Source: an uncultured Roseovarius sp.
Lineage (GTDB): Bacteria > Pseudomonadota > Alphaproteobacteria > Rhodobacterales > Rhodobacteraceae
Assembly: GCA_947499555.1 (NCBI GenBank)
Contig: CANMOU010000001.1
Span: 1 to 64,000, forward strand
Length of the DNA: 64,000 nt
Reading direction: 5' to 3'
Program-made: the position numbers and the translations under genes
Shown here: in pieces, positions 1 to 8,032 of the stretch
How positions within the stretch are numbered: position 1 is the stretch's first letter
How the letters are laid out: each line of letters begins with the position of its first letter
Notes under the pieces: generated by a model
Told to the model about the DNA's origin: nothing
Databases searched by the model: none
What the model saw: the letters and a program-made list of their open reading frames with translations, nothing else

Positions 1-77
1 TAATCAAACCAATCAGATGCGCCAGACCCTCCCTTAGATCAGGCAGCCAACTGACCCAAAACCTCCGACGACGGACA
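1..77 (-). mobile_element. IS3-type orfB remnant (left copy)
   Basis: Read on the minus strand, this stretch aligns without gaps to 6122-6198 on the plus strand, with 68 of 77 bases identical. In the frame that reads VLGQ, a motif usual near the start of IS3-family OrfB, about half the differences are silent third-position changes, so this was probably the coding frame. Both copies share the same internal TGA. It is therefore a decayed transposase fragment running off the left edge. The family assignment rests on the intact orfA near the other copy (5747-6034). Confidence 0.6.
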
Positions 78-525
78 CCAGATTTTCCTGGTGGATAACC
101 CTCGCGTCGACTTCTGGCATTACATAGGACTGTTGGTCAAACAGGCTGATATACAACAAACAATGATTATAAATTTTTCTTTTAATGCTTCCATAATCTA
201 AAACTGATGCGGCAAAGCGTTTTTCTATATTCGCGTCTGGAATTCTATCTTTTATAAAACACAATCGAACGTAACTGAAGCTGTCGCTTACATGGGAAAG
301 TTCGGCATAGGTAGATTGTGTGCAGAAAAATAAATCACCAGCCGAGAGATTCTTTTTGTTGTTAAATACCTTTAGGGATATTTCCCCTTCCAAAATTAGA
401 AAGATATCAAGGCATTCTACATAAATTTGGGTATCGTCAAACTCAGATGACCCGGGAAATTTTGTACTGTTCGCAAAGATAATCTGCAAACAGCCACTTG
501 TAACAATCGTTTGCGCTACGGTCAT
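34..525 (-). pseudogene. AraC-type sensor domain, truncated at IS junction
   Basis: A 163-residue reading frame. Residues about 30-100 look like the cupin-like ligand-binding half of AraC-family regulators: an ILEGEISLKV strand, an LSAGDLFF turn, then further strands. The last 25 or so residues are encoded by the transposase remnant at 1-77, so the C-terminal helix-turn-helix region expected of AraC proteins is absent. A strong Shine-Dalgarno run (GGGGGG) lies 8 bases before the ATG, and the start overlaps the stop of the upstream 64-residue frame, so translation is probably coupled. It may have been the regulator of the neighbouring secretion genes. Whether the remaining sensor is still made and does anything is unknown. 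The AraC assignment is by eye. Confidence 0.5.
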
Positions 526-716
526 AACTTTATCCCCCCAGCGTTCTTAAGTTGATTTTCTAATTTTTTGAGATTGCAATTACAGTTCAGTAAATTTACT
601 GGACCTTTATAATCCACACAAACTCTAAGAACATAATTGAAAAAAACTACCGCAGCGGTTTTCGGTGAGTAGATTCTTGTGCATATATATACACTTTGAA
701 TTCGTTTTGTTTGCAT
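522..716 (-). CDS. small basic Cys-containing protein, unknown
   Basis: A 64-residue frame not recognised as any family. It is basic and has four cysteines, including an NCNC pair near residues 44-47. The start has a good Shine-Dalgarno sequence (GAGGTG, 5 bases before the ATG), and its stop overlaps the ATG of the AraC-like frame by three bases, which is the usual geometry of a coupled pair. AT-rich composition matches the rest of the island. Without a family match it could still be a chance frame. Confidence 0.35.
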   Translation of the reverse strand: MQTKRIQSVYICTRIYSPKTAAVVFFNYVLRVCVDYKGPVNLLNCNCNLKKLENQLKNAGGIKL

Positions 717-893
717 ACACCACCTCTATCGATAGCGTCAAAAAGCCCCCAATCTATTTAACGTTCCCTAGAACCGCTAGCATTTTTTTGAAATGTGGCA
801 AAGTAAACAAAGACGACTAAATAATAAAGTTGCTGTGATCATAATTTGTTCAAATTAAAACCACCTGAGCGTATTCAAATTTTTCACCAGAAA

Positions 894-913
894 AACGGGA
901 CATTCATCCCGTT
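894..913. repeat. Inverted repeat / hairpin upstream of exporter operon
   Basis: A perfect 7-bp inverted repeat (AACGGGA / TCCCGTT) around a 6-base loop. On the minus strand it is followed directly by a short T run, so it could terminate transcripts moving left, insulating the minus-strand pair at 34-716. It lies in the 445-bp AT-rich gap 717-1161, which otherwise holds only the sites listed separately. Confidence 0.4.
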
Positions 914-970
914 ACCAGCCGTAAAACTATTCATCGCCAGGTTTTGAATTCTTGGTCTCTCACGTTTGAA

Positions 971-984
971 TTGAGAGCTCTCAA
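971..984. promoter_or_regulatory. 14-bp perfect palindrome, candidate operator
   Basis: TTGAGAGCTCTCAA is a perfect palindrome 178 bp before the exporter operon start and 12 bp before the 26-bp repeat at 996-1021. Its position suggests a dimeric regulator site. No comparable perfect palindrome stands before the second copy of the 26-bp repeat, so any link to that repeat is unproven. Confidence 0.4.
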
Positions 985-995
985 CCGCTTGCAAA

Positions 996-1021
996 GCAAA
1001 ATTTACAACAAAAATATCCAA
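996..1021 (+). promoter_or_regulatory. 26-bp repeat, copy 1 (upstream of hlyD-like gene)
   Basis: This 26-base block, beginning GCAAAATTTACAAC, recurs at 4776-4801 with a single mismatch. Copy 1 is 140 bp before the exporter operon and copy 2 is 218 bp before the first peptide gene, both on the plus strand. A long, near-identical block in two otherwise unlike intergenic regions fits a shared activator site or promoter. This is inference from position. Confidence 0.55.
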
Positions 1022-1161
1022 CAAAAAATTCCAATATTTTTACTGGCTTTTGAACTATTGTTAGCTTCTCTAAACCAAATTGTATGAAAAATATTTTTGG
1101 GAGACAGAGCATTCAGGGCCGATAACACACTTAAACATGTAGGTTTTTTACAAGGAATATT

Positions 1162-2463
1162 TTGAAGCGTGTCTCTGTCGGTGAATTAAACCTCTCATGT
1201 AAAGAGAAGCTGGCACGCATGACATTATTCAGACAGGAAGCGATACAGGAACAGCGGCAGAGTTTGCATGGCGACGTGTTCCTTCCCATGCCAATGTCTT
1301 TCAAAGTAATTCCGTTTTTGTTGATCGCGCTTTTAAGCCTGATTTTGATAATTCTTTTTACTGGCACTTACTCCAAGGTCGAACGAGTTCAAGGATATCT
1401 TGTGCCAACTAGCGGGTTGGTGAAAATTCAAACTGAACGCTTCGGCATTATTACTGCATTACATGTAAAAGAAGGTGACTATGTCCAGAAGGGTGACCCC
1501 CTTGTAACGGTCGATGCGACCCAGGCGACCGTTGATGGTAGTTCAGTTGAATTCCGAAGCTTGCAATCCCTTGGGAGCCAATATCAAACTATCAAGAGCC
1601 TGATCGTTCTGGAAGAGAATAAGTTAGAGTCAGAAACCGGCAGGCTGGAAGCAGAATTGACGGGTTTAGAGCAAAATATTTCATCGTTTTCCAATCGTCT
1701 TGCTTACCAAAAAGAAATCACCAAGCTTGCTAAAGCCTCATATTTGGATGTGCAAGATATTGCCAAGAAAGGGCTTATTACGAAGTCTGAAATGGCTGGC
1801 AGGCAACGGTCCTGGCTTACCGAACAAGCTGCGCAACAGTTACTTGAGCAAGAACAGCTCCATGCAATGGCAAGATATAAGCAATTGGAGATTGAATTTA
1901 ACCAATTGCCGGATGAGGTTGCTGGTCGAATTGCTCGCCTAAAGGAAGAGCTTCTAAATATCGATATGCGTAAAGCAGAATTGCATGGCAAACAGTCTTA
2001 TCTGGTTAAGGCTCCTGTTGCCGGACGTGTAACGTCGATTACAAGCAACACGATCGGGCAAAATTTACTCCCTCAGCAACCGCTTCTAAGTATCCGGCCT
2101 GAAGGAAGCCATCTTGTTGCCGAATTATTTGTTCCAAGCAGTGCGATTGGTTTTATTGAAAAAGGCCAGGAAGCCCGACTACTCTATGCAGCTTTTCCGT
2201 ATCAACGGTTCGGCAGCTATACAGCAAGAATTACAGATATTACCGAAACAATTCTCACACCGGACGAAGTTGACGCGCCTTTCGCAATCGATCAGCCGGT
2301 TTATCGTGTCAGAGCAGCCCTGGAAACTGAAAAACTGGAAATTGCCGGTAAGTCAATCGCACTGCAACCGGGCATGCAGCTTGATGCAAACATAATTAGA
2401 GAGAAAAGATCTTTCTTAGGGGTTATTCTGGAACCCATTAGAGCATTGAGGGGGCGGACATGA
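1162..2463 (+). CDS. HlyD-family membrane fusion protein of peptide exporter
   Basis: The 433-residue periplasmic adaptor that couples an inner-membrane peptide ABC exporter to an outer-membrane channel. Features: a cytoplasmic N-terminus, one membrane segment at about 48-68 (VIPFLLIALLSLILIILF), a first biotinyl-lipoyl half around 80-120 (VKEGDYVQKGDPL), a long coiled-coil hairpin at about 135-275, the second lipoyl half (VKAPVAGRVTSI), and a beta-barrel domain. It starts at TTG, chosen because AAGGA lies 5 bases upstream and no ATG fits. The stop overlaps the start of the next gene by four bases (ATGA), so adaptor and exporter are co-translated. The type is that of bacteriocin exporters (CvaA-like) rather than large RTX toxin systems. 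Confidence 0.9.
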   Translation: MKRVSVGELNLSCKEKLARMTLFRQEAIQEQRQSLHGDVFLPMPMSFKVIPFLLIALLSLILIILFTGTYSKVERVQGYLVPTSGLVKIQTERFGIITALHVKEGDYVQKGDPLVTVDATQATVDGSSVEFRSLQSLGSQYQTIKSLIVLEENKLESETGRLEAELTGLEQNISSFSNRLAYQKEITKLAKASYLDVQDIAKKGLITKSEMAGRQRSWLTEQAAQQLLEQEQLHAMARYKQLEIEFNQLPDEVAGRIARLKEELLNIDMRKAELHGKQSYLVKAPVAGRVTSITSNTIGQNLLPQQPLLSIRPEGSHLVAELFVPSSAIGFIEKGQEARLLYAAFPYQRFGSYTARITDITETILTPDEVDAPFAIDQPVYRVRAALETEKLEIAGKSIALQPGMQLDANIIREKRSFLGVILEPIRALRGRT

Positions 2464-4652
2464 CGAACGCGCAATCCCTCAGCATGCTCAACCTTTCAGG
2501 CCGCCGACGCCTGCCAGTTATTCGCCAGACGGAAGCTGCAGAATGCGGCCTGGCATCATTGGCTATGGTTGCGGGTTACTTTGGTTTTCAAACCGATCTT
2601 TCAACTTTGCGTCGCCAATTCAATACAAGCATACGAGGCATGTCACTCGCCTCAATAATGCAGGTCGCTGAAAAGCTAAATTTTACAACACGCCCGGTTA
2701 AGTTGCCGCTTGAGGCAATCTCGCAATTGCGGCTTCCAGCAATATTGCATTGGGATGTTAATCACTTCGTGGTTTTAAAAGCCGTCAAAAGTAACAAGCT
2801 GACGATACATAACCCCGCATTCGGTGAAAGAAGTTATAGTTTTGAAGAATTCTCCAAACATTTTACCGGTGTCGCTCTAGAGCTAACCCCAACAGAAAAT
2901 TTCAAAAAGCGGAATGAAAAAAATATCCTGCGTTTATCTGACCTTTGGGGGCGGATGATTGGGTTTAAAACCAGCTTGCTTCAAGTTCTGGTGCTTTCGA
3001 TCGTACTACAGGTTTTTGTTCTCGCCAGTCCCTTTTACCTGCAGATCGCCGTGGATGATGTTGCGGCCAGTTTTGATAGAGATTTATTGCTTATACTAGC
3101 CCTTGGTTTCGGCGGCTTCACAGTTATCAATATGGTGGCGCAGACCCTGCGTGGATATGTCCTGCTTTATTTCGGCAGCATGTTGTCTTTTCAAATGTCA
3201 GGAAACTTGTTTCGCCATCTGTTGCGTCTACCCATTGAATATTTCGAGAAACGACACGTCGGTGACATTCTTTCACGTTTTGATTCAGTCGACCCAATCA
3301 AAAAGATGCTGACTGAAAGCCTGATAGGTGGTCTGATTGATGGGGTCATGGCGATCACCACATTGGTCTTGATGTTCATCTATAGCCCGTTGCTCGCCGT
3401 GATTGCGCTTTTTGCATGGGCGATCTATCTGGCCTTACGTGTCATAACCTATCGCTCCTTCCGCGCATGCCAGGAAGACCTGATTATTTCGGGTGCCAAA
3501 GAACGCACAACGTTCATCGAAAGCGTACGCGGCGTTACATCTTTGAAGTTATTCGGTGGTGAAGATCAGCGATACAATTTCTGGCAAAATCGTTTGGCTG
3601 ATACGATCAATGACAATGCTCGCCTGCAGAAACTCAACATATGGTTTGAAAGCGCCAATATTTTTATATTCGGAATTGAACTCGTACTTTTAATCTACGT
3701 TGCGATTCATCTTGTCTTAAATGGCGGCTTTACGATCGGCATGATCTTCGCTTTTATGGCCTACAAACAAAACTTCACAAAAAACGCAACTGCTTTGGTG
3801 GAAACGGCGATCGAGTATCGATTGCTTGATTTGCACCTGGAACGATTGGCTGATGTTGCGCACGCCGACAAAGAAGAAGTATCTGATCATCTATCCGTCA
3901 GTTTGGTTGATGCAAAACCAATAACCGGATTAATTGAGGTCAAGTCTGTCAGCTACAGCTATTCTACAGATACACCGAATGTACTCCAGAATGTGAATTT
4001 GAAAGTTGAGCCGGGAACCAGCATTGCGATTATTGGATCTTCAGGTTGTGGCAAAAGCACATTGCTGAAGATAATGACCGGCCTCTTCCAGCCGACCGAT
4101 GGCCAGGTACTGATTGATGGAATTCCGTTGACAACCTACGGGCTCCAAACCTTTCGCAAGCAAATTGGTGTCGTTATGCAGGACGATGACCTGTTTGCCG
4201 GGACAATTGCGGAGAACATCTCCTTCTTTGATACCGATATCGATATGGAACGCATAAGTGATGCTGCAAAAGCTGCGATGATCCATGATGAAATAATGGA
4301 TATGCCAATGCGTTACGAAAGTCTTGTCGGTGATATGGGTTCTTCAATGTCTGGCGGACAGAAACAACGATTGATGCTGGCAAGAGCACTTTACCGTAAG
4401 CCTAAAGTTCTCTTTATGGACGAAGGCACCGCGAACCTGGATGTGGCGACAGAACGAGCTGTAAATGCCTCAATTATTGAGCTGGATATAACACGGATCA
4501 TCATTGCACACCGGCCAGAAACCATCCGTATGGCTGATCGGATCGTGGAGATGCATGAAGGATGCCTGAGTGAAATCGAACTCGAAGCAGGCCCGTCACA
4601 AAGGCTACCCGATATCAAGCCGGCCAAAAACCTTCAATCCAGCGCGAGCTAG
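2460..4652 (+). CDS. C39-peptidase ABC exporter (double-glycine peptide processing and secretion)
   Basis: A 730-residue bacteriocin-type exporter that both cleaves double-glycine leaders and pumps out the peptide. An N-terminal C39 domain (about 15-140) carries Cys29 (EAAECGLAS) and His102 (HWDVNHFVV). The third catalytic position reads Asn118 (IHNPAFGE) where the family normally has Asp. A six-helix membrane domain follows at about 165-445. The nucleotide-binding domain has Walker A (GSSGCGKST, near 527), signature MSGGQKQR, Walker B (VLFMDE) and an H-loop (IIIAHRPE). It lies in an operon with the HlyD-like adaptor. No TolC-type gene or peptide-modifying enzyme is nearby. The likely substrate is the peptide at 5020-5115. 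Confidence 0.93.
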   Translation: MTNAQSLSMLNLSGRRRLPVIRQTEAAECGLASLAMVAGYFGFQTDLSTLRRQFNTSIRGMSLASIMQVAEKLNFTTRPVKLPLEAISQLRLPAILHWDVNHFVVLKAVKSNKLTIHNPAFGERSYSFEEFSKHFTGVALELTPTENFKKRNEKNILRLSDLWGRMIGFKTSLLQVLVLSIVLQVFVLASPFYLQIAVDDVAASFDRDLLLILALGFGGFTVINMVAQTLRGYVLLYFGSMLSFQMSGNLFRHLLRLPIEYFEKRHVGDILSRFDSVDPIKKMLTESLIGGLIDGVMAITTLVLMFIYSPLLAVIALFAWAIYLALRVITYRSFRACQEDLIISGAKERTTFIESVRGVTSLKLFGGEDQRYNFWQNRLADTINDNARLQKLNIWFESANIFIFGIELVLLIYVAIHLVLNGGFTIGMIFAFMAYKQNFTKNATALVETAIEYRLLDLHLERLADVAHADKEEVSDHLSVSLVDAKPITGLIEVKSVSYSYSTDTPNVLQNVNLKVEPGTSIAIIGSSGCGKSTLLKIMTGLFQPTDGQVLIDGIPLTTYGLQTFRKQIGVVMQDDDLFAGTIAENISFFDTDIDMERISDAAKAAMIHDEIMDMPMRYESLVGDMGSSMSGGQKQRLMLARALYRKPKVLFMDEGTANLDVATERAVNASIIELDITRIIIAHRPETIRMADRIVEMHEGCLSEIELEAGPSQRLPDIKPAKNLQSSAS

Positions 4653-4703
4653 CGCCCTGGCGGCACGCCAAATCGGTTTCAACAATGATTTCCTGAAAAA
4701 AGC

Positions 4704-4734
4704 GGGCGGTGAGGTACACAACACCTCACCGCCC
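4704..4734. terminator. 12-bp hairpin with ACACAAC loop after the exporter
   Basis: A perfect 12-bp stem, GGGCGGTGAGGT paired with ACCTCACCGCCC, closes a 7-base loop ACACAAC. It lies 51 bp after the exporter stop. There is no T run on the plus strand, while the minus strand has six T after the stem, so it is at best an atypical plus-strand terminator. The same ACACAAC loop closes hairpins before two of the downstream peptide genes, suggesting a related RNA element. Confidence 0.6.
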
Positions 4735-4775
4735 TATGCCTAACAAACCATGAATGGAAATTAGGTGCTCGAAGC

Positions 4776-4801
4776 GCAAAATTTACAACAAAAATGTCCA
4801 A
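4776..4801 (+). promoter_or_regulatory. 26-bp repeat, copy 2 (upstream of peptide genes)
   Basis: Matches 996-1021 at 25 of 26 positions. It precedes the leader and peptide gene at 5020, as copy 1 precedes the exporter operon, which would put exporter and cargo under the same control. The flanks of the two copies differ, so the conserved block itself is likely the functional unit. Confidence 0.55.
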
Positions 4802-4879
4802 TACAGATGACGGAAACGTTACTATCATAAACTTAGATACGATGGAGATAAAATATTTCAAGGACAAACAATCAAAGAG

Positions 4880-5019
4880 CTTCCAGCCAAGATGAGTTGA
4901 CGCTCAACAAGGCGAGAAGGCCGGACATCAACACTGACACCCGGCAATTAAGCGGAGATGATCAGGATACACAACATCCGGTGATCTCTTAAAACCAAAC
5001 CATGAAAAGGAAAACGGAC
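4880..5019 (+). promoter_or_regulatory. Structured 5' leader L1 of peptide gene 1
   Basis: First of three related leaders. L1 and L2 (5174-5312) are nearly identical through their first 80 or so bases. Three hairpins can be drawn: GTTGA-CGC-TCAAC near 4895-4907, GCCGG/CCGGC around 4919-4945, and a larger one with GGAGAT (4954-4959) pairing ATCTCT (4984-4989) and an inner GGAT/ATCC closing the loop ACACAAC (4969-4975). The shared A-rich string ACCAAACCATGAAA and an AAAAGG ribosome site follow. The matching stems in L2 and L3 differ in sequence but still pair, which favours RNA structure over protein coding. Confidence 0.55.
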
Positions 5020-5115
5020 ATGGCTACTATCAGTAAATTCTTGATCGAAACACTTTCTGTAGACGAACTTAAGGCCGTAAGCGGTGGTGATTGGCAAGTC
5101 CCACGTGGTCCCTAA
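5020..5115 (+). CDS. Double-glycine leader peptide precursor, 8-residue predicted core
   Basis: A 31-residue precursor. Residues 1-23 are a classic double-glycine leader (FLIETLSVDELKAVSGG), of the kind cleaved by C39-type exporters such as that at 2460-4652. The predicted mature product after Gly23 is DWQVPRGP, only eight residues, far shorter than typical bacteriocins. It has no Cys, Ser or Thr, so no lanthipeptide rings or disulfides are possible. I chose ATG 5020, with AAAAGG 9 bases upstream. An in-frame ATG at 5002 lacks a ribosome site. A short exported signal or a small antimicrobial are both possible. I know of no named family for it. Confidence 0.72.
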   Translation: MATISKFLIETLSVDELKAVSGGDWQVPRGP

Positions 5116-5133
5116 GTTGGGGTAACCCGTTCA

Positions 5134-5157
5134 GTGGGGCGCTTAACAGCGTCCCAC
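5134..5157. terminator. Hairpin after peptide gene 1
   Basis: GTGGGGCGCT pairs with AGCGTCCCAC around a TAAC loop (10 pairs, one G-T wobble), starting 18 bp after the peptide stop. No T run follows. It may stop or stabilise the short peptide transcript. Confidence 0.5.
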
Positions 5158-5173
5158 ACCTAAGATCAAACAC

Positions 5174-5312
5174 CTTCCAGCCAAAATGAGTTGACGCTCA
5201 ACATGGCGAGAAGGCCGGGCTTCAACACTGATACCCGGCAATTAAGTGGAGATAATCAGAATATTTGCCGTGTGGTTATCTCTCGTAACCAAACCATGAA
5301 AGGATGCTAGAG
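5174..5312 (+). promoter_or_regulatory. Structured 5' leader L2 of peptide gene 2
   Basis: Repeats L1, with the same two upstream hairpins (GTTGA/TCAAC and GCCGGG/CCCGGC). The main stem is GGAGATAA (5248-5255) paired with TTATCTCT (5276-5283). The loop differs from L1 and lacks ACACAAC. The same ACCAAACCATGAAAGGA string carries the ribosome site. A 35-codon frame from ATG 5203 runs through L2, but the equivalent frame in L1 lacks an ATG there. Confidence 0.5.
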
Positions 5313-5462
5313 ATGAATTCCTCCTTATCTAAAGTAAAAAGCCTGCTTCTTGGTGAATTAAAAACCCTGGAAGACCAATACTGCGAAATATGGGAAGAAA
5401 CGGGTGAAAATTTTATCAGTAAAAACCTGTTTCATGAGAAGACCGACGATAAAACACGATAG
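5313..5462 (+). CDS. Small peptide of the secretion island, unknown
   Basis: A 49-residue acidic peptide whose start follows the same leader and AAAGGA ribosome site as the double-glycine peptide. It has no GG cleavage motif: the N-terminal part (SKVKSLLLGELKTLEDQY) looks leader-like and helical, while the rest is charged. It could be a degenerate precursor, a leader-only regulator or an immunity-type small protein. Shared upstream structure is the main support that it is expressed. Confidence 0.45.
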   Translation: MNSSLSKVKSLLLGELKTLEDQYCEIWEETGENFISKNLFHEKTDDKTR

Positions 5463-5550
5463 AGCGCTCTAATAATTCATCTAATAGTTCAAATGACCTT
5501 CTCAAAGAACCTCATGCGAACCCAAACCGCACAGAAAGGTTTGCACACAA

Positions 5551-5637
5551 GATGATAGCCAGCAAATAAGTGGAGGCGATCCGGCACACAACACCCAATC
5601 ACCTCCTGTCCAAACAAACTATAAAAGGATAGTAGGC
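5551..5637 (+). promoter_or_regulatory. Structured 5' leader L3 (diverged)
   Basis: A diverged third leader. GGAGGCGAT (5572-5580) pairs with ATCACCTCC (5598-5606) with one internal mismatch, and the loop region contains ACACAAC (5586-5592). Relative to L1 and L2 several stem pairs have changed on both sides, which is covariation. A CCAAAC string and AAAAGGA ribosome site lead to an ATG at 5638. Confidence 0.45.
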
Positions 5638-5699
5638 ATGAAAAAATTTTATTAGAAATTAGATATCAATCTCAAAAAATACTGCGTCATCCGGGTTAA
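5638..5699 (+). pseudogene. Third peptide frame, broken at an A6 run
   Basis: After leader L3, an ATG is followed by AAAAAATTTT and a stop after five codons (MKKFY). If the A run had one more base, the frame would continue as about 20 residues beginning MKKILLEIRYQS and ending RHPG, with a TAA at 5697-5699. A one-base homopolymer loss, a slippage-controlled frame, or truncation by the adjacent IS insertion could each explain this. No double glycine is visible. Confidence 0.3.
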
Positions 5700-5746
5700 C
5701 TGTGATTTTCAGCGCCCTGAATTTTTAAGCAAAGATTGGAAATTCC

Positions 5747-6034
5747 ATGATTGCCCGGAAAAACTATTCCGACGAGGAAATTTTAAAACTGCTGGATGAG
5801 ATCGAGACCCTTTTGTCCTCCGGCAATGATATCTCCACCGCATGCCAGTCCGCCGGGATCAGCAACGCAACCTACTACAATTGGCGCAAACGCTTTGATG
5901 GCATCGGTCATTCTCAACTGGCTGAGATGAAGACATTGGAAAAAGAGAACGCGCGGTTGAAAAAGATTGTCGTTGAGTTGGAACTCGACAAATTGATCCT
6001 CAAAGAGAGCCTGGAAGAATTAAAGCCGAAGTAA
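5747..6034 (+). mobile_element. IS3-family transposase OrfA
   Basis: A complete 95-residue OrfA. The helix-turn-helix is at about 8-55 (DISTACQSAGISNATYYNWR) and a leucine-zipper-like coiled coil at about 60-93 (ENARLKKIVVELELDKLIL), the standard layout of IS3-group OrfA proteins. OrfB should follow by frameshift but is only a decayed remnant here (6053-6320), so the element cannot move by itself. No clear terminal inverted repeats were found. It marks the right edge of the AT-rich island. Confidence 0.85.
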
Positions 6035-6052
6035 TCAAATGATCCGGTGGTG

Positions 6053-6320
6053 ACGCAGAAATGCCTGCGACGTTTCCAAGAGATTAGTGTCTGTTTTACA
6101 GCGATTTAGAAAAGTTTTGATTGTCCGTCGTCAGAAGTTTTGGGGCAGATGGCTGCCTGAGCTAAGAGAGGATCTGGCTCATCTGGTTGGTTTGATTAAG
6201 CGGCGGATTGCCATTATGGCTGCAATCGCTAGTCCGGTGTTGTGCATGACGGAACTAAAGTGGGTCGCAATTCTCGATAGAGCTTCTATCAATGTCTCTG
6301 CGCGTTGATTCCAGATTTCA
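6053..6320 (+). pseudogene. Decayed IS3-type orfB (right copy)
   Basis: Directly after orfA, sequence resembling the start of an IS3 OrfB can be followed in pieces (TQKCLRRFQEIS, then EVLGQ, then a stretch like the GRYGYR region: CHYGCNR, HDGTKVGRN), broken by frame changes and in-frame stops. The catalytic DDE part is absent. The segment 6122-6198 is repeated in inverted orientation at 1-77. A C9 run at 6326-6334 follows and has no frame to switch. Confidence 0.5.
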
Positions 6321-6403
6321 GGCCACCCCCCCCCATTCGGATGGATAGGATAGACTTCATAGTTCCGCCTAGTCGTCTAAGTGGGAGTTTTTCATTCTTT
6401 CCC

Positions 6404-8032
6404 TTAGTCGATAGTTTCTGCCACGGCAAAGCGCCGGAAAGCGAATTGCAGTGCGACCAATGTCAGAAGTCCGATGAACGTCAGTGTCAGCCAGCTGGCC
6501 AATCCAGGCAGGATCAATGTCGTTCCCATCATTTTGAAAGTGACCAGCCCCACGGCACCCGATGCCGCCACTGCAGCCAAAACGAAAATCGTTTTCGCGA
6601 TAAACTCGACAATTGAACGACCAAGAAATTCGAAATCTGCCCGTCCCATCGCAACGAGCTTTGTCGGAAACAGAAGATGAATTGTGTTCTCGACCGCATA
6701 GATCAGCAACATCAACGGAAGCGCAAAAGCTGCTAAGATCAGTGCAGCTTGTGTCGTGACACTATCCTCAAAGACAAGGGCGCTCGCTATAATTGTCAAA
6801 GCAATGACATAGGCCAGAAGCACCTGAACCACGAGTTGGCCTGCGCAGATGCGCCACGGTGCGATGGGCAGTGTCTTGTAGATTTCCATCCGGCTCAGGT
6901 CACCGCGAAAGTCGCAGACCAGATTGCGGGGTAGGATGAATGCGATGAAGACATAGATAATCATCAACGTCTGTGGTTCCGTGACCGGCGCACCGAGCGC
7001 TAAGAAAATCGGCACAATACAGGCGGCGAGACCGACAAAAATGATGACAAGTTTGAATGAATTCCGCAATGCGTTGAGGACCTGACGCCAGGCAATGGGC
7101 CCCAAGCCACCTACAATTGGTGCACGACGCATTGAGCGCACCTCGGTCCGCTCTGTAGCCCAGAAAGACCCACCTTGTTTGATGCGCTCCCATCGGTCGC
7201 TGCGTCGGGCGTTTTCCGCGAGGGAGCGGTCGGTCGTGCGCGCATCGAGCACGATGACGGCGCGCAACAGCGCCGCATTGATGACGATCGCGACAAGAGC
7301 CCAAAGGGCCATATGTGAAACCGATGGCGCCACGAAAAGTTCAGCAAAGACGATGTAGGGGATCAAGATTATAGTCCCAATCCATGAGTGTCGAAACTCG
7401 GACAGAAGGTCGATGATGCCACGGTCGGGCGTGGCCCATGCATAAAGCAAGGTTGCCACTGCAATTGCGCAAAGCACCACAATAGCGGGCCATCGCATCC
7501 TCGCGAACCTGCTGCCGTCGAGTGCCTGCCCAATCATGCTGATGACGGCGCTGTTCAACTGAACGAACACAAGCGTCAGGAGCGTGGCGATAAAGACAGA
7601 CAGGGCCGATCCTGTTTGTGACGGTGCAATGAGAGTGATGAACACGCTAGTCAAGGTGACGCCAGCGACATAGGCGCCGAACTTATAGAGGATCAAATCC
7701 CGCCGGCGGAACGGCCCAGTAAAGAGAAAATTGATCTCATTCGGTGAAAAATGAAACGTAGGACCAGTCGTCATCAATACGGTGAGTAACGACAGCCCGA
7801 GCATGCTGAGCGGCATAAAAGTGAGGATCTGCTCGCTGAATGCTTGCCGGTCCGGAGACGCGGATCCGAACAAGCTCGTGTCCGGGGAATTGTTTGAAGC
7901 GACCAGGAACCAAATGATCGCGCCGAAAGCAAGCGAGAACAGCAGACCGCGCAAGCTTGCCAACTGGAGCAAGCGCTGGCGTAGACCGCCACGCAGACGC
8001 AACATGAGAAGTTGGCGAAGTGCAGAATCCAT
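6404..8032 (-). CDS. Putative ABC exporter permease
   Basis: A 542-residue polytopic protein with about ten hydrophobic segments, a cytoplasmic arginine-rich linker near 275-300 and no ATPase motifs. It looks like the putative ABC exporter permease group partnered with DrrA-like ATPases. The start lies 3 bp after the stop of the ATPase gene at 8036-8788, so the two form a transcription unit. Substrate unknown. GC content is higher than in the adjoining peptide island, which suggests a different origin. Confidence 0.78.
   Translation of the reverse strand: MDSALRQLLMLRLRGGLRQRLLQLASLRGLLFSLAFGAIIWFLVASNNSPDTSLFGSASPDRQAFSEQILTFMPLSMLGLSLLTVLMTTGPTFHFSPNEINFLFTGPFRRRDLILYKFGAYVAGVTLTSVFITLIAPSQTGSALSVFIATLLTLVFVQLNSAVISMIGQALDGSRFARMRWPAIVVLCAIAVATLLYAWATPDRGIIDLLSEFRHSWIGTIILIPYIVFAELFVAPSVSHMALWALVAIVINAALLRAVIVLDARTTDRSLAENARRSDRWERIKQGGSFWATERTEVRSMRRAPIVGGLGPIAWRQVLNALRNSFKLVIIFVGLAACIVPIFLALGAPVTEPQTLMIIYVFIAFILPRNLVCDFRGDLSRMEIYKTLPIAPWRICAGQLVVQVLLAYVIALTIIASALVFEDSVTTQAALILAAFALPLMLLIYAVENTIHLLFPTKLVAMGRADFEFLGRSIVEFIAKTIFVLAAVAASGAVGLVTFKMMGTTLILPGLASWLTLTFIGLLTLVALQFAFRRFAVAETID

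Follow-up and report, generated by a model that had tools for sequence, protein, structure and literature searches.

Class II microcins and colicin V, like the streptococcal pheromones of the ComC and BlpC types, are exported by ATP-binding cassette (ABC) exporters with a C39 peptidase domain and carry leaders that end in a double-glycine (GG) motif. Signaling in the roseobacter group has mostly been studied through acyl-homoserine lactones. An earlier screen of 79 genomes looked for GG peptides and C39 exporters in Gram-negative bacteria (Dirix et al. 2004, as outlined in an excerpt of PMC9746304). In excerpts of two further papers, HetC is a cyanobacterial C39 exporter with an unknown substrate (PMC10986499), and C39 exporters are the commonest neighbors given for ATP-grasp peptide loci (PMC8939145). 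Here we describe a locus at the start of a 64,000-nucleotide stretch (the window) of contig CANMOU010000001.1 from an uncultured Roseovarius sp. (GCA_947499555.1), in which a gene for a 31-amino-acid GG precursor with the predicted core DWQVPRGP follows genes for an HlyD-type adaptor and a C39 exporter. Features lie on the + strand unless stated otherwise. The pairing of the peptide with the C39 exporter is well supported, and among the literature matches listed nothing was recognized as an account of this system or of an octapeptide product of C39 export. Our reading of the whole, a horizontally acquired secretion cassette that would export the 8-mer DWQVPRGP after cleavage behind the GG, is tentative and stands at close to an even chance.

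The precursor gene (5020-5115) translates as MATISKFLIETLSVDELKAVSGGDWQVPRGP, in which the 23-residue leader MATISKFLIETLSVDELKAVSGG precedes the core, the predicted cut being the leader/core boundary. The start at 5020 was preferred over 5002 because AAAGG sits 9 nt before this ATG, a spacing that recurs in the two modules described below. The ORF (open reading frame), its GG leader, and the 8-residue core were found where the initial annotation had placed them, and the leader passes the cut-off of the leader model TIGR01847 in a profile search of the window proteins (17.2 bits, cut-off 15.7). The peptide thus combines a leader model score above the cut-off with a GG end, one of the endings (GG, GA, or GS) by which double-glycine leader peptides were recognized. 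When all six frames of the 3.73-Mb genome were searched with TIGR01847 at E<=10, 11 candidates were scored and one match was reported, this same leader (15.9 bits, E 0.17). Positions -4, -7, -12, and -15 of the leader are V, L, L, and I, respectively, and these positions are said, in the excerpt of PMC7018657 consulted, to contact the peptidase domain. A strict leader pattern, composed with the 5020-5115 peptide in view, matched once in the window and in no simulated window out of 60; with a loose pattern there were eight matches against a simulated mean of 12.7, i.e., no excess. The 31-residue peptide scored below the cut-offs of Pfam Bacteriocin_IIc (12.4 bits, cut-off 27.1) and of the CCRG-2 model (17.7 bits, cut-off 24). 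The predicted core is free of Ser, Thr, Cys, and Lys and has a computed monoisotopic mass of 953.472 ([M+H]+ 954.479).

Just upstream, the HlyD-type adaptor gene (1162-2463, alternative ATG start at 1219; PF13437, 65.4 bits, cut-off 22.2) overlaps by 4 nt the gene for a peptidase-containing ABC exporter of 730 amino acids (2460-4652), and both reading frames are intact. PF03412 (Peptidase_C39), PF00664 (ABC_membrane), and PF00005 (ABC_tran) all exceed their cut-offs in the exporter, which therefore has the C39, transmembrane, and ATPase domains that define this exporter class. These domain scores bear out the C39 exporter and HlyD partner previously assigned to the locus, most of the HlyD gene lying outside the interval then given for the unit (2460-5115). 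The best-scoring model, the NHLP bacteriocin exporter TIGR03796, reached 543.8 bits and missed its cut-off of 853.3. Of 70 matches to the exporter in the genome, just one, that in the window itself, extends over the C39 region, and candidate genes for an outer-membrane factor are present elsewhere in the genome. Two alignments show that Gln23, Cys29, and His102 of the C39 domain are retained; one of them is without the C39 domain of 7 of 24 loci (L009, L017, L023, L030, L034, L035, and L040). HlyD, the exporter, and an outer-membrane factor encoded elsewhere would together form a type I secretion channel. We infer that the precursor would dock on the C39 domain via its leader and be cut after GG during transport, and that DWQVPRGP would then be released through the exporter, HlyD, and the outer-membrane factor.

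The cargo of related exporters was surveyed at 28 loci, 11 of them from plasmid records (out of 867), and GG or GA motif matches lay beside the exporter in 15 of the 28. The survey returned 27 matches, one of which was dropped (L032:9004-9327, which looks like part of an HlyD gene), and the 26 accepted cores measure 28-104 residues. In three loci (L034, L035, and L040), the exporter was not recognized and the peptides were left uncounted; looser-pattern candidates in L034 and L035 have cores of 57 and 74 residues. The sensitivity of the survey was limited, with annotated bacteriocin or bacteriocin-like peptides of L067 and L070 being missed. The looser pattern added one accepted core, of 21 residues and hence the shortest, along with several ORFs with apparent cores of 1-18 residues that were judged chance matches on the grounds that they had no acidic leader consensus, lay far from the exporter, or sat inside other genes. 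Because accepted cores at related loci run from 28 to 104 residues, the 8-residue core is an outlier, in agreement with the earlier view that it is unusually short, and its length falls outside that of class II microcins. To our knowledge, no double-glycine product is as short as an octapeptide. It proved too narrow to place C39 substrates mainly in Firmicutes: 867 plasmid records contain an exporter relative, all below 60% identity and with Escherichia and Klebsiella foremost, and two Rhodobacterales plasmid loci have GA peptides of their own.

Three observations on these loci are recorded here. L029, from genome G521, has five GG/GA precursors whose cores differ widely (one is strongly proline-rich) near a C39 exporter with Asn at the third catalytic position. 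L010 (8250-12737, Eilatimonas) contains a relative of an ATP-grasp maturase, a JmjC-type gene, a 2-oxoglutarate (2OG) oxygenase gene, two GG precursors, and a C39 exporter. The Rhodobacterales GA peptides (L038 4522-4695, L039 4483-4635) have strongly basic, Ser/Asn-rich cores and lie upstream of the HlyD and C39 exporter genes.

The peptide gene is the first of three modules with a repeated 5' leader, an arrangement absent from the initial annotation: from 4871 to 5637, a folded leader RNA occurs in three tandem copies with a different small ORF after each. The module 1 leader (4871-5007, 137 nt, three predicted stem-loops) is 84% identical to the module 2 leader (5165-5301), and the two are the sole close copies found in the genome. 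The fold of 4872-5020 has a z score of -3.57 (0/200 shuffles as good), compared with -3.42 (1/200) for the module 2 leader and -1.77 (9/200) for the diverged module 3 leader (5520-5637). Conservation of the structure is suggested, not shown, because the covariation term of the three-leader consensus fold is unfavorable (+2.78, with two-sided changes in 3 of 26 pairs), because copy 3 loses five of the seven pairs of the first stem and three of the five pairs of the second, and because there are three copies only. The module 2 ORF (5313-5462, 49 amino acids) has no GG motif, no family match, and no match among 72,556 plasmids (E<=10), and the module 3 ORF (5638-5655) is broken by a stop at codon 6. 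Comparison of the three ORFs gave no significant homology, whether between proteins (fraction of shuffles as good, 0.08 for modules 1 and 2, 0.32 for 1 and 3, and 0.18 for 2 and 3) or between DNA sequences (0.17-0.27).

A 10-bp hairpin (5134-5157), a candidate terminator, lies 18 nt past the peptide stop codon (fold of 5108-5165: z -3.16, 1/200 shuffles as good), a position in keeping with a gene of 31 codons. Another candidate terminator, a 12-bp hairpin without a T run on the + strand, lies 3' of the exporter gene (4704-4734). A 26-nt box upstream of hlyD (996-1021) is repeated with one mismatch upstream of module 1 (4776-4801), with no further copy in the genome at E<=1, which suggests that the exporter operon and the peptide module may be coregulated via this common box. 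Rfam gave no match in 1-6500 at E<=1, and sigma-70 promoter-like matches showed no excess (6 vs. a shuffle mean of 9.3).

Judging from composition and distribution, the cassette was probably acquired horizontally. GC content is 35-50% over 1-6400 (400-base steps) compared with 58% over 12,001-64,000, and the locus is framed by an IS3-type insertion sequence (IS) end at 1-77 on the - strand, inside which the contig starts, and its diverged inverted repeat at 6122-6198 on the + strand. Further contigs of this genome terminate in the same IS end, and an IS3 family transposase is annotated under 4 of its 15 matches in plasmids. Exporter relatives are present in 2/85 genomes of the genus, 2/295 of the family, and 6/385 of the class (thresholds E 1e-100, 1e-130, and 1e-170), the window's own genome being counted each time. 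Short patterns run against 84,980 species genomes, an approach of limited reach, found 11 exporter loci, the best being that of Eilatimonas milleporae (64% identity), and no exporter relative was found in viral contigs. In a FastTree phylogeny of 24 exporters, the window exporter is sister to that of Eilatimonas (local support 0.998) and apart from those of Rhodobacter and Paracoccus; L012, L030, L040, L034, and L035 are absent from this tree, the last two coming from the genus and family of the window itself (35% and 38% identity). The low GC content, the IS3-type ends, the patchy relatives, and the Eilatimonas grouping are most simply explained by horizontal acquisition.

In this strain, the island has the look of partial decay. 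On the - strand, a cupin-like gene that may be of AraC type (78-525, N-terminal ~149 codons) is cut at the IS end; its product gives E values of 0.019 with Cupin_2 and 0.0022 with an AraC-type regulator model, each below the cut-off, and has no plasmid match at E<=0.01. A transposase ORF (HTH_Tnp_1, 5747-6034; PF01527, 54.6 bits, cut-off 24.1) adjoins the cassette as a remnant. At the end of contig C3 (L057 12082-12402), the opposite end of the same IS truncates a C-terminal AraC-type DNA-binding fragment. This fragment could be the lost remainder of the 78-525 gene, or unrelated to it: the bases flanking the IS ends at window position 77 and in C3 share no duplication, and the usual size of an AraC-type regulator would leave a linker missing between the halves.

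Several observations weigh against a cassette that exports the octapeptide. The core is far below the 26 accepted ones in length, the neighboring gene is cut at the IS end, module 3 is broken, and module 2 has no GG. The third catalytic residue of the C39 domain, usually Asp, is Asn118; such a change was seen in 2 of 24 aligned exporters, the window's and that of L029, with Asp in the other 22. Papain-type proteases have Asn at this position, so C39 activity is plausible. The expectation that homologous leaders accompany this type of exporter held in part, as the leader type recurs beside related exporters while the 31-mer itself had no match in the 72,556 plasmids at E<=10 and a single weak match elsewhere in its own genome (E 0.38), which contains a stop; for all other genomes searched, the query was the exporter instead of the peptide. 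Among the six proteins scanned (34-6034), no receptor, two-component gene, or intact regulator was recognized, with no wider receptor search.

The same evidence can be read as decay, with a once normal-length core, microcin-like or modified, reduced to an 8-residue truncation stub while the exporter and HlyD have not yet degraded. We consider this account possible but doubtful. In its favor are the 28-104-residue cores of related loci, the early stop of module 3 near the transposase remnant, the lack of a GG in module 2, the truncated cupin-like gene, and the longer precursors and ATP-grasp maturase relative that accompany the Eilatimonas exporter. Another frame is also open over the end of the leader and onward (ORF 5091-5189, 32 codons); as the lost core it was rejected, a poor candidate because it spans the 5134-5157 hairpin and enters the module 2 leader repeat that starts at 5165. 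Against decay, the leader, the ribosome-binding spacing, the exporter, and HlyD are intact, and the hairpin stands where a 31-codon gene should end. A secreted 8-mer is favored over a remnant in a decaying island, without strong confidence.

The folded 5' leader, the hairpin past the stop codon, and module 2 directly after it would also suit a regulatory leader ORF whose translation controls module 2, the GG being incidental. However, a GG leader arising by chance beside a C39 exporter is improbable, and module 2 carries its own copy of the leader RNA; we hold this explanation to be very unlikely. An equally small chance is left for the core being the precursor of a modified product, with the responsible enzyme encoded elsewhere or lost past the end of the contig. 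In the nearest relative (64%), the exporter gene does adjoin ATP-grasp maturase-like, JmjC-type, and 2OG oxygenase genes, and window base 1 is also the first base of the contig. The statement that no modification enzyme is present stands within the scope covered: none was recognized among the six proteins, and the ATP-grasp maturase model TIGR04187 had no genome match at E<=0.01, which sets the locus apart from graspetides, other maturase and modification enzyme families not having been searched genome-wide. Lanthionine or the usual graspetide links need Ser, Thr, Cys, or Lys, none of which the core contains.

Returning to the secreted octapeptide, we infer that an extracellular signal or cue would be the likeliest role of a working 8-mer because no immunity gene was recognized (the module 2 ORF matches no family and the left flank lies beyond the contig), the core is too short for a pore former, and no tailoring enzyme was seen. 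The firmer claim that the locus points to a signal rather than a toxin was not upheld, given that no signaling partner was recognized among the scanned proteins and that the remnant of a longer precursor remains a rival. The fullest version, in which a Gram-negative C39 exporter releases an unmodified octapeptide pheromone from a modular leader-RNA array under one shared operator box, we regard as unlikely. Should the octapeptide be secreted, this Gram-negative would export an unusually short C39 cargo, one that would be a compact and testable candidate for peptide signaling. The leader-RNA modules point to a way in which cassettes of this sort may exchange cargo. If it is a stub, the locus is a secretion island caught while decaying.

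Among described systems, the locus resembles class II microcin and colicin V-type secretion, with which it shares the exporter architecture, the HlyD adaptor, and a GG leader with the known hydrophobic spacing. It differs in its 8-residue core (28-104 at related loci), in having no recognized immunity gene, and in its repeated leader RNAs before different small ORFs. The graspetide-like locus of Eilatimonas milleporae (L010) has the same HlyD and C39 exporter pair (64%) and GG precursors, and differs in its ATP-grasp maturase relative (below the cut-off), its two oxygenase-type genes, and its two cores of 37-38 residues; no DNA similarity to the leader RNAs or the box of the window was found in it. 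The Rhodobacter sp. CZR27 and Paracoccus liaowanqingii plasmid loci (L038 and L039) likewise belong to Rhodobacterales and combine HlyD and a C39 exporter with a GA peptide upstream. Their exporters are 43-44% identical and belong to another clade, their cores are basic and 32-35 residues long, and genes for a response regulator and an ATP-binding protein lie downstream. With streptococcal double-glycine pheromones, the locus would share C39 export of a small unmodified peptide and a possible signaling role; ComC/BlpC-type cores are longer, at about 17-27 residues, and the window, unlike those systems, has no two-component gene among the proteins scanned. A GG peptide with a C39 exporter in a Gram-negative is thus of a known kind, and what is unusual is that the core has 8 residues and that the leader modules are repeated.

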